Shown piece after piece: positions 3,589 through 25,452 of a stretch of 64,000 nucleotides of DNA. Origin of the DNA: Pseudomonas oryzihabitans NBRC 102199 (GTDB lineage: Bacteria > Pseudomonadota > Gammaproteobacteria > Pseudomonadales > Pseudomonadaceae); the NCBI RefSeq assembly GCF_000730625.1, contig NZ_BBIT01000021.1:32724-96723 (forward strand), given 5' to 3'. Positions within the stretch are counted from its first letter, which is position 1. Each line of letters starts with the position of its first letter. The notes under the pieces were generated by a model that searched no databases, was not told the origin of the DNA, and was given only the letters and a program-made list of their open reading frames with translations. The translations under genes and the position numbers were made by a program.

Positions 3589-4149
3589 TCAGGCGACGCG
3601 CAGGCCCTGGCTCGACCCCAGCTTCGCCAGGTGGAGCAGGCCTTCCTCCCACTGCCGATGCCCGGAGCGGGTGTTGATATGGCCGGCACCGGGCAGGACA
3701 TCCAGTTCGCTGCCCCAGGCCTGCGCCAGGGCTTCGGCCCGCGGCAGGCTGATGGCATGGTCGTTGTCCGAGGTCACCACCCGCGAGGGGAAGGGTAACG
3801 GCTGGCGTGGCAAGGGGGCGAAACCCACCAGCTCCACGGGGCAACCCGGACGTTCGACATCGGCCGGCGCCACCAGCAAGGCCGCCAGCACCCGCTGCCG
3901 GCGGGCCACCGGCGCGCTGGCCGCCCAACGGGCGACGGTCACGCACCCCAGGCTATGGGCGATCAGCACCACCGGCGCATTGGCCTGGGCGATGGCCGCG
4001 TCGAGGGCGGCGACCCAGCGCTGCGGATCGGGACGCTGCCAGTCGTCCTGTTCGACCCGACGGGCATCCGGCAGGCGGCGTTGCCAGTGGGTCTGCCAAT
4101 GCTCGGGACCGGAGCCTTGCCAACCGGGAAGGATGAGATAGCGGGTCAT
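3589..4149 (-). CDS. RBBP9/YdeN-family serine hydrolase
   Basis: A 186-residue single-domain alpha/beta hydrolase. It opens with YLILPGWQGSGPEHWQTHW, the family's signature start. The nucleophile Ser66 lies in AHSLGC, Asp130 in the SDNDHA segment and His157 in GAGHINTRSGH, giving a complete catalytic triad. Members are small cytoplasmic serine hydrolases of unclear physiological substrate. The gene faces the type II secretion operon with a 17-base gap and has no obvious functional tie to it. The ATG is preceded by GGAGCACCGCC on the coding strand, a usable ribosome site. Confidence 0.8.
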   Translation of the reverse strand: MTRYLILPGWQGSGPEHWQTHWQRRLPDARRVEQDDWQRPDPQRWVAALDAAIAQANAPVVLIAHSLGCVTVARWAASAPVARRQRVLAALLVAPADVERPGCPVELVGFAPLPRQPLPFPSRVVTSDNDHAISLPRAEALAQAWGSELDVLPGAGHINTRSGHRQWEEGLLHLAKLGSSQGLRVA

Positions 4150-21242: not shown

Positions 21243-21272
21243 AAAACGCCTCCTTCGGGAGGCGTTTTTTTT
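21243..21272 (+). terminator. Intrinsic terminator after katG
   Basis: An 11-bp stem (AAAACGCCTCC / GGGAGGCGTTTT with a TTC loop) is followed by an unbroken T run, 17 bases after the stop. Confidence 0.9.
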
Positions 21273-21374: not shown

Positions 21375-21402
21375 CTTAAGCAAACCCTAAGCGCCCCTTA
21401 AG
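21375..21402 (+). promoter_or_regulatory. Three PmrA-type half-sites upstream of the NRPS gene
   Basis: CTTAAG (21375-21380), CCTAAG (21386-21391) and CTTAAG (21397-21402) are spaced exactly five bases apart. This gives two overlapping direct-repeat boxes of the form YTTAAK-N5-YTTAAK, with one mismatch in the middle half-site. The family's response regulators bind such 11-bp repeats at the -35 position. A possible -10, ATACAA at 21421-21426, lies 18 bases after the last half-site, and the start codon is 54 bases downstream. PmrA control is inferred from the motif only. Confidence 0.6.
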
Positions 21403-21456
21403 GAGCGCGTAACCCGGGAGATACAAACTGCGCTAAACACCCAGAGGCTGTCCCCC

Positions 21457-24400
21457 ATGGAAGCGCTTGCCGAACTCTCCCTCAGTCTGGTCGAAGGCCC
21501 CATCCGCCCCGATCTGTGCCGCGATGAAGTCCTCGCCGATCTGTTCGAGGCCACCGCGGCGCGGGCGCCGGAGCGACCCGCCCTGCTCGAAGGCGAGCGC
21601 AGCCTGAGCTACGGCGAACTGAACGCCTGGGCCGACCGCGCCGCCTCGCGGCTGTTGGCCGCCGGCGCCGGGCCCGGCCGCGTGGTCGGCCTCTGGCTGC
21701 CGCGCGGCATCGAGCTGCTGGTGATGCAGCTGGCCATCGCCAAGACCGGCGCCGCCTGGCTGCCCTGCGATGCCGAAACCCCGGCCGACCGCGTGGCCCT
21801 GTGCCTGGAAGACGCCCAGGCGGTAGGCGTGATCACCGGGGCGCCCTTCGCCGATCTGCTGGCGCGCCCCGGGTTGCACTGCTGGACCCCCGACGCGCTG
21901 AGCGTCGCCCTGGGCAGCGGCGAAACCCTGCGCCGGCGCGGCCTGGTCTCTCCGGACAATCTGGCCTATCTGATCTACACCTCCGGCTCCACCGGCAAGC
22001 CCAAGGGCATCGGCATCCGCCAGGACAGCATCTGCCACTTCCTGCGCAGCGAGAATTCGCTGCTCGGCATCGAGGCCGGCGACCGGGTCTACCAGGGTTT
22101 CTCGGTGGCCTTCGACATGTCCTTCGAAGAGATCTGGATCAGCTACCTGGTGGGCGCCACCCTCTGGCTGGCCCCGCGCGAGATCACCGCCGATCCCGAG
22201 GCCCTGGCCCGCGCCCTGAGCGCCAATCGCATCAGCGTGCTGCACGTGGTGCCGACCCTGCTGGCGCTGCTGCCGGAAGACGTCCCCAGCCTGCGCCTGA
22301 TCAACCTGGGCGGCGAGATGTGCCCCGAGCCCCTGGTGGCGCGCTGGAGCCGGCCGCAACGGCGGCTGTTCAACACCTATGGCCCCAGCGAGGCCACCGT
22401 CTCGGCGAGTCTGGCGCAGCTGCAACCGGGCGAGCCGGTGACCATTGGCCGGCCGCTGCCCAACTACAGCCTGCTGGTGGTGCCTGCCGATGCCAGCCAG
22501 CCACTGGCGCTGCTGCCGCGCGACCAGGTGGGCGAACTCTGCATCACCGGTCCCGGCGTGGCCGATGGCTACCTGGGCCGCCCGGAGCTGACCGCCGAGA
22601 AATTCCTGCCCAATCCCTGGAGCACCGGCAGTCACGATCTCAAGCTCTATCGCACCGGTGACCTGGCGCGGGTCGACGAACACGGGCAGGTGCACTGCCT
22701 GGGCCGGGTCGATGACCAGGTGAAGATCCGCGGCTATCGCGTCGAACTGGGCGAGATCGAAGCCACCCTGGCCCGCCAACCCGGGGTCGGGACCGTGGCC
22801 GTGGTGCTGCGCGAAGAGGGCGGCGTGGAGCAACTGGTGGCCTTCCTGGTCGGCGATGGCGGCCCGCTGCCACGCAGCGACCTGCTGCGCACCGAACTGG
22901 CCGGCTGCCTGCCGCTGTACATGGTGCCCAGCCGCTTCGAGTGGCTCGGCGAGATGCCACGGCTGAATTCCGGCAAGATCGATCGCAAGCAACTGCGGGC
23001 CCGCCCCCTGGCCATCGCTGCGGTGGCGCCGGTCGCTCCGGCCAGCGGCGCCCTGGGTGCGCTGCTGGCGGCCACCGCCGAACTCTTCCCCGGTCAGCCG
23101 CTGCACGCCGAGATGGATTTCTTCGACGACCTGGGCGGGCACTCGCTGTTCGCCGCCCGGCTGGTCTCGCGCCTGCGCCAGGATCCGCGCTATGCCAGTG
23201 CCACGGTCAAGGCGGTCTATGCCGGCCGCACCCTGGGCGCCATCGCCGAGGCCCTGGAGGCCGACGCCGCCGAAGCGGGCGCAACGACGGCCACCGAGGC
23301 CTGGGCGCCACCCAGCCGCTGGCGGCGCTGGCGCTGTGGCCTGGCCCAGGCGGTAGCCCTGCCGCCGCTGCTGACCCTGCGCCTGGGCCGCTGGCTGGCG
23401 CCCTTCCTGGCCTTCCCGCTGCTGATCCATTCCGGCACCGCGCTGCCCCTGGCGATGCTGACCGCCCTCAGCCTGTTCGTCCTGGCCATCGGCCTGGAAT
23501 TCGCCGTGGCCGTGGTGGGCAAGCGCCTCACCGGCCGCCTGCAGCCCGGTCGCTATCCGCTCTGGGGACTGACCTACTACCGCTGGTGGCTGGGTGAGCG
23601 TTTCCTCGCTCTGGCGCCGGCCTACCTGCTCAGCGGCTCGCCCCTGGCGCGGGGCTGGCTGCGCCTGCTTGGCGCACGCGTCGGCGCCGAAGCCTTCGTC
23701 GGCACCCTGACCCTGCGCGTCCCCGAGTTGCTGACCCTGGGGCAGGGCGCCAGCCTGGGCAACGGCGTCAATTTCGAAAACGCCCGGGTGCTGCGCGGCG
23801 AATTGCTGCTCGGCGCCGTGACCCTGGGGCGCGAAGCCCAGGTCGGCTCCTATGCCATCCTCGAAGGCGACACCGCCCTCGGTGACGGTGCGCGCCTGCA
23901 GGCCCAATCCGCCCTGCGCAGCGGTCAGCGCATCCCGGCCGGCCGCCACTGGGGCGGCGCGCCGGCCCGCGATCAGGGTGCCGCCGGTGCCCGCGTGCTG
24001 CCGCCGGCCCCGGTGTCCCGTGCCCAGCGTGCCCTGCTCAAGGGCCTCTATGCCCTCAGCGGCCTGGTGGTCTCGGTGCTGTTCTTCATGCCGCTGTTTC
24101 CCCTGGCGCTGCTGATCGACGAACTGGAAAGCTTTGGTGGACTACCCTGGTGGCACACCTCTTCGCTGCTGCTCGATGCCCTGCAGTACGGCGTACTGGC
24201 CCTGCCGCTGGGCGTGGTCAGCGTCGCCCTGACCCTGCTCGGCTGCGCCCTGGCGCGGCGGCTGATCCTGCCACGCCTGGAAGAAGGCCAGTGGTCGATC
24301 GACAGCCTCTTCTACTGGCGCAAGTGGCTGGCCAACCTGATCCAGGAGTCGGCGCTGCAAAGCTTGCAGGGCCTCTATGCCACCGTCTATTCGGCGCTCT

Positions 24401-25452
24401 GGTATCGCCTGCTGGGTGCCCGGGTCGGTCGCGATGCCGAGATATCCACCGCCCAGGGTCCGGTCTCCTCGTTGCTGGAGCTGGGCGCCGAGACCTTTAT
24501 CGCCGATGCCGTGATGCTCGGTGACGAACAGGTCGCCCAGGGCTGGATGACCCTCAGACGCACCTCCATCGCCCGGCGCAGTTTCGTCGGCAACGGCGCC
24601 TATGTCGCCGACGGCTGCCACATCCCCGAAGACGCCCTGATCGGTGTCCTGGGTCGACTCGACGAGGGTGTGCCCCTGCGCCAGGGCGAAACCTGGCTCG
24701 GCTCGCCGGCGGTCCGGCTGCCGGCGCGGGAAACCCTGACTGGCTACCCGGAAAGCCTGACCTTCCGCCCGGCCCCCTGGCGCCGGGTGGCGCGTGGCCT
24801 GATCGAAGCCCTGCGCATCGTGCTGCCCACCGGCTTCACCGTGGCCGCCGGCTGCGCCATCGCCGAGGCCCTGGTGCCGCTGTGGCAGCAGGGCGCCTGG
24901 CTGCAGCTGCTCGGCGAGACCCTGCTGGCCGGCAGCGCCTTCGCCCTGGCCAGCTTCCTGGTCGTGCTGGGGCTCAAGTGGCTGGTGGTGGGCCGTTATC
25001 GTCCGCGTTCGGCGCCCATGTGGACCTTTTTCGTCTGGCGCAGCGAAGCCATCACCAGCCTCTACGAAACCCTGGCGGTGCCCAATCTGCTCGGCACCCT
25101 GCGCGGCACGCCCTGGCTGCCGCTGGCGCTGCGCCTGCTCGGCGCCCGCCTGGGTCGCGGCACCTACCTGGATACCACCGACCTCACCGAATTCGACTGC
25201 GTGCGCCTCGGTGACTACGGCGAACTCAACGCCCTGGCCGGTCCCCAGACCCACCTGTTCGAAGACCGGGTGATGAAGGTCGGCGAAGTCGAGCTGGGGG
25301 CCGGGGTCAACCTGGGGCCGCGCAGCGTGGTGCTCTATGGCGCCCGCGTCGGCGACGACGTGGAACTGGGTCCGCTGTCGCTGGTGATGAAGGGCGAAAC
25401 CCTGCCGGGTCGCTCGCGCTGGGAGGGTAACCCCGTTCAGCCCCGGCGCTAG
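21457..25452 (+). CDS. Pls/PosA-family membrane NRPS, candidate cationic homopolymer synthetase
   Basis: This 1331-residue protein resembles the poly-epsilon-lysine synthetase type. Domains in order: an adenylation domain (about 20-515; YTSGSTGKPKG near 173, YGPSEAT near 308, NSGKIDR near 505), a carrier domain with Ser563 in DDLGGHSLF, and membrane segments (about 630-700). Then come three left-handed beta-helix (hexapeptide) domains near 745-850, 990-1095 and 1230-1330, separated by further membrane helices. There is no condensation domain of normal type and no thioesterase. The extracted substrate code is D220 M221 E224 H263 I282 L284 T307 V315 S316 K507, close to the diaminobutyrate signature as I remember it. 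A basic amino acid is the best guess. A PmrA-type box precedes it, and the next gene lies 67 bases on. Confidence 0.85.
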   Translation: MEALAELSLSLVEGPIRPDLCRDEVLADLFEATAARAPERPALLEGERSLSYGELNAWADRAASRLLAAGAGPGRVVGLWLPRGIELLVMQLAIAKTGAAWLPCDAETPADRVALCLEDAQAVGVITGAPFADLLARPGLHCWTPDALSVALGSGETLRRRGLVSPDNLAYLIYTSGSTGKPKGIGIRQDSICHFLRSENSLLGIEAGDRVYQGFSVAFDMSFEEIWISYLVGATLWLAPREITADPEALARALSANRISVLHVVPTLLALLPEDVPSLRLINLGGEMCPEPLVARWSRPQRRLFNTYGPSEATVSASLAQLQPGEPVTIGRPLPNYSLLVVPADASQPLALLPRDQVGELCITGPGVADGYLGRPELTAEKFLPNPWSTGSHDLKLYRTGDLARVDEHGQVHCLGRVDDQVKIRGYRVELGEIEATLARQPGVGTVAVVLREEGGVEQLVAFLVGDGGPLPRSDLLRTELAGCLPLYMVPSRFEWLGEMPRLNSGKIDRKQLRARPLAIAAVAPVAPASGALGALLAATAELFPGQPLHAEMDFFDDLGGHSLFAARLVSRLRQDPRYASATVKAVYAGRTLGAIAEALEADAAEAGATTATEAWAPPSRWRRWRCGLAQAVALPPLLTLRLGRWLAPFLAFPLLIHSGTALPLAMLTALSLFVLAIGLEFAVAVVGKRLTGRLQPGRYPLWGLTYYRWWLGERFLALAPAYLLSGSPLARGWLRLLGARVGAEAFVGTLTLRVPELLTLGQGASLGNGVNFENARVLRGELLLGAVTLGREAQVGSYAILEGDTALGDGARLQAQSALRSGQRIPAGRHWGGAPARDQGAAGARVLPPAPVSRAQRALLKGLYALSGLVVSVLFFMPLFPLALLIDELESFGGLPWWHTSSLLLDALQYGVLALPLGVVSVALTLLGCALARRLILPRLEEGQWSIDSLFYWRKWLANLIQESALQSLQGLYATVYSALWYRLLGARVGRDAEISTAQGPVSSLLELGAETFIADAVMLGDEQVAQGWMTLRRTSIARRSFVGNGAYVADGCHIPEDALIGVLGRLDEGVPLRQGETWLGSPAVRLPARETLTGYPESLTFRPAPWRRVARGLIEALRIVLPTGFTVAAGCAIAEALVPLWQQGAWLQLLGETLLAGSAFALASFLVVLGLKWLVVGRYRPRSAPMWTFFVWRSEAITSLYETLAVPNLLGTLRGTPWLPLALRLLGARLGRGTYLDTTDLTEFDCVRLGDYGELNALAGPQTHLFEDRVMKVGEVELGAGVNLGPRSVVLYGARVGDDVELGPLSLVMKGETLPGRSRWEGNPVQPRR

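Follow-up and report, generated by a model that had tools for sequence, protein, structure and literature searches.

Upstream of a posA-like non-ribosomal peptide synthetase (NRPS) gene in the 64,000-nucleotide stretch of DNA analysed here (the window), three six-base half-sites are repeated at an exact 11-bp pitch and form an operator-like array. Judging from the sequence comparisons below, the most probable occupant of this array is phosphorylated BqsR (CarR), which is predicted to activate posA, and we give this reading a probability of about 0.45. That some regulator of the PmrA/BqsR class binds the array is very probable. Our best reading is an array for an activator of this class, with BqsR the most likely member and PmrA the next, and the chance that BqsR is its main regulator falls a little short of even.

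The array upstream of posA

The preliminary description of this DNA had reported three half-sites, CTTAAG, CCTAAG and CTTAAG, at exact 11-bp spacing in front of the NRPS gene, and all three are present on the forward strand, at 21375..21380, 21386..21391 and 21397..21402 respectively. The array ends 54 bp 5' of the NRPS ATG at 21457, and its third half-site lies near the expected -35 position. A degenerate fourth hexamer, CGTAAC (21408..21413, forward strand), follows in the same 11-bp register, with two mismatches to TTAAG on the sense strand. A terminator-like hairpin with a TTCG loop and a T run (21245..21272, forward strand), recognized by eye 3' of katG and aligned in nine of the ten upstream regions described below, sets posA apart from its upstream neighbour; it does not appear in the output of the consensus scan.

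The core promoter is poorly defined. No sigma-70-type promoter before posA passed the consensus scan, as would be expected if an activator is needed. The hexamer ATACAA, previously proposed as the -10 element, is indeed found at 21421..21426, 18 bp past the third site, but it agrees with TATAAT at only one of six positions; the best candidate begins one base further on (TACAAA, 21422..21427, forward strand) and is itself weak, with a 4/6 match. Across the ten genomes that carry posA this hexamer reads TACAAA in five, TACACA in four and TACAGA in one. The overlapping array is plainly present; the -35/-10 placement of its last pentamer is uncertain.

Matches to CTTAAG-N5-CTTAAG with up to two mismatches occur three times in the window, overlapping one another and all at the posA array, and 100 shuffles gave a mean of 0.24 with none reaching three. 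Three in-register TTAAG pentamers, again with up to two mismatches, occur at this single place in the window and in none of 60 windows simulated with a first-order Markov model. CTTAAG pairs alone are not special on the scale of the genome, since with up to two mismatches they give 40 matches per strand, fewer than the 79 obtained with the reversed control pattern.

Conservation and distribution

A posA gene is present in 10 of the 13 genus genomes searched, at 93–100% identity; in the other three, matches were weak and confined to the adenylation domain. The seven named relatives closest to the NRPS (93–98% identity) belong to P. oryzihabitans (three), P. rhizoryzae (one) and Pseudomonas sp. 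(three, one of them a MAG), and they place the window in a genome of the P. oryzihabitans group. All ten posA-bearing genomes have the half-site array 5' of the gene, so that within the genus the sites are conserved in front of orthologues, and the proposal of the preliminary description passes the comparison named there as able to refute it; they are kept also where the upstream gene is a different one, and with one spacer drifting. In one such genome (L141) katG is not upstream of posA, yet sequence identity begins at the array.

When the ten upstream regions are aligned, half-sites 1 and 3 are invariant (12/12 columns) and half-site 2 is invariant at five of six columns, reading CCTAAT in four of the ten genomes, for a total of 17/18. 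The fourth hexamer is invariant at 5/6 columns, the remainder to the ATG at 31/43, and the 20 columns just upstream of the array at 1/20. Spacers 1 and 3 are fully kept (5/5 each), so the contrast between sites and spacers rests on spacer 2, with 1/5 columns invariant. Seven Pseudomonas loci among the 80 best posA loci (of 312) all carry the array as well; by their coordinates they are seven of the same ten genomes, and the conservation count therefore stays at ten.

Outside the genus we compared 76 posA homologues, comprising the other 73 of the 80 best loci (of 312) and three from an order-wide search in which 5 of 341 genomes had a strong posA match. None of the 76 has the triple array with fewer than four mismatches on the sense strand up to 400 bp upstream, and control through the array would thus be lineage-specific. 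Pairs of TTAAG with at most one mismatch precede posA in four of the 76 (perfect in L051, one mismatch in L056, L059 and L073), which we read as mostly chance. In L056, L059 and L073, which are related posA loci from Undibacterium and its relatives, a TTTAG-N6-TTAAG pair recurs at about -76 to -82 before posA, and possibly represents independent control or a core promoter element.

Where else such arrays occur depends on the stringency of the search. A degenerate three-site pattern with one mismatch gave eight rows and the reversed control also gave eight, only the exact matches at posA and at a bqs-like operon standing out, and a stricter pentamer pattern was adopted for this reason. That pattern, TTAAG-N6-TTAAG-N6-TTAAG with at most one mismatch on either strand, gave 38 rows in the 13 genus genomes and a single control row. 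Overlapping rows, which we merged, resolve into 22 places in the ten posA-bearing genomes: ten at posA, ten at the bqs promoter and two at a third locus. In four of the ten posA arrays the one-mismatch reading is on the antisense strand only, the sense strand having two mismatches. The three posA-free genomes have the same pattern at five places, none of them at the bqs operon. Arrays as such are not unique, as the triple TTAAG array is present in 31 of 57 relatives searched.

The genome of the window (G000) has a third TTAAG-type array at G000:C30:32836-32874 (L097, about 3837-3875), which reads better in reverse orientation and is flanked by a YCII gene and by an acyltransferase-3 gene whose start is about 215 bp downstream; arrays similar to it in sequence are found in G007 and G009. 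Pairs of CTTAAG with a single mismatch are also located 5' of a bestrophin-family gene (L083, about 1501) and of an HBM-domain chemoreceptor-like gene (L085, about 1501), and these two genes are possible further members of the regulon.

Candidate regulators

The closest counterpart of the posA array within these genomes is the promoter of an operon with the gene order PepSY-PepSY-regulator-kinase (a response regulator and a histidine kinase), an arrangement that by sequence matches BqsPQRS/CarRS of P. aeruginosa; the bqsPQRS operon is named in PMC12666569, and CarR is another name of BqsR (PMC8041468). The bqs promoter carries four in-register pentamers in 10 of the 13 genomes and two in the three that lack posA, and, as at posA, there is a fourth hexamer in the 11-bp register. 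The BqsR/CarR-like regulator is found in all 13 genomes. Among solved structures its top match, at 213.9 bits over 123 residues, is the receiver of P. aeruginosa CarR (8gc6). The DNA-binding domain of CarR (9yfa) matches over 97 residues (149.7 bits), the recognition regions being nearly identical, and Klebsiella BasR matches over 219 residues (154 bits). Its best NCBIfam models are QseB and PmrA, with scores well below cut-off for both. For PmrA and BqsR, the available part of the SELEX atlas (PMC8041468) contains no motif text.

The sites recognized by BqsR in P. aeruginosa have the sequence TTAAG-N6-TTAAG and can be extended into overlapping arrays of up to five pentamers; in a dissected promoter the last pentamer overlaps with the -35 and output rises with additional pentamers, and the system serves to protect the cell from cationic stressors (PMC4682146). 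The posA array has TTAAG-type pentamers with the 6-bp spacer, and on the sense strand it departs from the consensus at 1 of 15 positions in six genomes and at 2 of 15 in four. Two features do not fit neatly. The first is the middle pentamer, CTAAG in six genomes and CTAAT in four, which has a C at position 1 in all ten; exchanging T for C at the first position of the upstream pentamer reduced BqsR-driven expression nearly 10-fold (PMC4682146). This pentamer would be a weak BqsR site and counts against BqsR, and because of it we do not class the posA array as a canonical BqsR operator. The second is orientation, which mattered for BqsR (PMC4682146): on the minus strand the array reads as four pentamers with at most one mismatch each in all ten genomes, leaving its orientation ambiguous. 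The posA promoter is also no exact copy of either of the other promoters considered here, as a TANNNT element 10 bp past the last hexamer is present in 13/13 bqs promoters, in 10/10 promoters of the regulator gene L110 (see below) and in 0/10 posA promoters. We looked by eye for covariation between bqs pentamer 2 (TTAAG/TTAAT) and posA half-site 2 (CCTAAG/CCTAAT); the two agree in 7 of 10 genomes, which are too few and not independent, and the comparison was set aside.

The signal would presumably be Fe2+ or a related cation. PaBqsS is stimulated by Fe2+, with Glu48 the key ligand and with Glu45 and Asn49 needed for signalling (PMC12666569). In the bqs kinases of these genomes (L194-L206) the likely matching helix reads GETEN at six loci, SETEN at four and TESEN at two, the latter from posA-free genomes, so that 12 of the 13 loci fit the pattern. 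In the inferred register the kinase seems to retain the Glu-Asn pair but to lack the initial Glu of ExxE, which counts against BqsR; its Fe2+ response may differ from that in P. aeruginosa.

The main competitor is the proposal made at the outset, that the array is a PmrA box: PmrA would bind CTTAAG-N5-CCTAAG, the third site being additional, and would turn on posA in response to low Mg2+ or cationic peptides. We consider this possible, and somewhat less probable than control by BqsR. Enteric PmrA boxes have the form CTTAAG-N5-XTTAAT, and the pbgP variant CTTAAT-N5-CCTAAG is documented by a Salmonella PmrA footprint and by Klebsiella PmrA binding (PMC3973317), so that half-sites 1 and 2 suit PmrA. 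Two hexamers of the CTTAAG/XTTAAT type are indeed present at posA head to tail with a 5-bp gap, if CCTAAG is accepted as in pbgP. The form of the motif and its retention in ten of ten genomes therefore agree with the original proposal; the motif is nonetheless common to PmrA and BqsR, and the array form matches the bqs promoter. Pairs of the PbgP type (CTTAAK-N5-CCTAAK) occur at 25 places in the 13 genomes, ten of them at posA; the other 15 precede several recurring open frames, and 5 of these 15 are followed by GGCATAA. These pairs speak neither for nor against a PmrA regulon.

The genome of the window also encodes three further regulators of the PmrA/QseB type. One of these, L110, we take provisionally to be PmrA on the basis of P. 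aeruginosa sequence and a match to BasR. It is found in exactly the 10 posA-bearing genomes of the 13 (E ≤ 1e-75), and its own promoter keeps GTTAAT-N5-CTTAAG in 10/10. Against a role for it at posA, this promoter has two sites and no array, and it is at bqs and posA that these genomes have arrays. Among NCBIfam models L110 scores highest with QseB (264.3 bits), with PmrA second at 244.4 bits (cut-off 330), and two other regulators, L107 (244.7) and L115 (247.0), score similarly on the PmrA model, all three below the cut-off. By sequence, L110, L115 and L107 are thus all of the PmrA/QseB type, and the PmrA label for L110 is not borne out by the model scores. That L110 and L115 are present only in the ten posA-bearing genomes, and BqsR in all 13, might be listed against BqsR. 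We tried and rejected this co-occurrence as evidence for PmrA, because the shared distribution of posA, L110 and L115 (the same 10 of 13 genomes) reflects a single clade split, and we have not used it in choosing between regulators. A comparable polycation is under PmrA control in P. aeruginosa, where PmrA drives production of surface spermidine (PMC9746822).

It is unlikely that the site belongs to another member of the class, L115 or L107. The recognition stretch is EVH or EVL in L107, L110, L114 and L115 alike, so that protein sequence cannot decide which of them it would be, and the distribution of L115 equals that of posA. The region that separates L115 from a divergent PepSY_2 gene contains a CCTAAG-N5-ATTAAG pair (L242:1830-1846; G000:C21:48329-48345), and a CTAAG-N6-TTAAG pair beside L115 is kept in 7 of 10 genomes. 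This locus, however, has only two sites, absent in 3 of 10 genomes, which read towards the divergent gene and form no array. The pair is about 45 bp before the PepSY_2 gene, which is small and is followed by a cytochrome b561 gene.

Activation by BqsR also has to be weighed against repression, in which the bound regulator would, for example, cover the -35 and the polymer would be made only when stress is absent. Half-site 3 is at the expected -35 position and reading the array on the minus strand gives an equal or better match, but BqsR sites overlapping the -35 are activating (PMC4682146) and the posA core promoter is weak, which together make repression improbable. Least probable, by a little, is that the hexamers are a chance AT-rich core element with no regulator, as might be argued from the lack of genome-wide enrichment of CTTAAG pairs and from the conservation of most of the core promoter beyond the half-sites (31/43 columns to the ATG, and spacers 1 and 3 in full), since three in-register sites of this quality arose in 0/60 simulated windows and the half-sites are kept in 10/10 genomes while spacer 2 drifts.

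The synthetase and its relation to known systems

The posA-like gene (21457..25452, forward strand) encodes a Pls/PosA-family NRPS of 1331 residues, with an adenylation domain, a carrier domain and a long C-terminal domain with hexapeptide repeats in Pfam. It passes the NCBIfam model TIGR02353 for the Pls/PosA family (693.5 bits, cut-off 423.1) as well as an adenylation model, and among solved structures it is closest to the A. baumannii PosA adenylation domain (8g95; 530.6 bits). The pocket residues D M E H N G T V S are identical to those of A. baumannii PosA at all nine compared positions, where we placed the G at an LGG stretch and took the final K only from the GKIDR motif. The earlier assignment of the gene to the Pls/PosA type is thus upheld, and the agreement of the pockets points to delta-poly-L-ornithine as the predicted product, so that the enzyme is a predicted delta-poly-L-ornithine synthetase. 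Directly 3' of posA is a gene of the SdiA-regulated family PF06977 (25520..26443, forward strand), a possible operon partner, which is found there in 10/10 genus genomes and in none of the available flanks of the 76 other posA loci.

If BqsR is the regulator, its phosphorylated form would occupy the array, possibly sharing the site with PmrA, and would recruit RNA polymerase to the weak posA core promoter. PosA would then make delta-poly-L-ornithine at the membrane, to serve as a cationic envelope polymer under cation stress. We put forward tentatively, and as less probable than BqsR binding itself, a larger proposal: a membrane NRPS, induced by BqsRS/CarRS (and perhaps PmrAB as well), would cover the cell in this polymer and so provide a shield for the envelope that can be switched on, alongside aminoarabinose and surface spermidine. 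The idea that a cationic polymer defends the envelope is a good one and can be tested; if true, non-ribosomal polymers would join envelope charge defence as effectors of a new kind. What cationic homopolymer synthetases do for Gram-negative bacteria is little understood; the conserved operator-like array suggests a condition to try (Fe2+ or cation stress) as well as candidate regulators, through which both the producing conditions and the function become testable.

A. baumannii PosA is a demonstrated delta-poly-L-ornithine synthetase; its knock-out formed only slightly more biofilm, and a synthetic ornithine 12-mer inhibited fungi with minimal activity on two Gram-negative bacteria (PMC10522769). 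The window NRPS is of the same Pls/PosA family and has the same adenylation pocket at the compared positions. Unlike A. baumannii PosA as described, it has a TTAAG array upstream and a PF06977 gene downstream, and the available main text on the A. baumannii enzyme never mentions PmrA, a promoter, polymyxin or any word beginning with regulat- (PMC10522769). Among the matches listed in the open-access literature, the scope of our search (which leaves subscription papers aside), none links a Pls/PosA-type synthetase to PmrA or BqsR.

The posA array resembles the PmrA box of Salmonella and Klebsiella pbgP in its CTTAAG/CTTAAT and CCTAAG half-sites, its five-base spacer and its head-to-tail arrangement, and differs from the enteric box in having three (arguably four) in-register sites rather than two. 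It resembles BqsR (CarR) operators in having TTAAG-type pentamers every 11 bp in overlapping arrays, a site near the expected -35 and a relative of the regulator in the same genomes, and differs from them in its middle pentamer, CTAAG or CTAAT, which is rare and weak for BqsR, in its ambiguous orientation and in its target, a polyamino-acid synthetase. The parts are of known kinds and their combination is new. A further parallel is with the PmrAB-controlled spermidine genes PA4773-PA4775 of P. aeruginosa, where a surface polycation is made under the control of a regulator of cation stress, as proposed here for posA; the product there is a small polyamine, whereas that of posA is a predicted non-ribosomal polymer.
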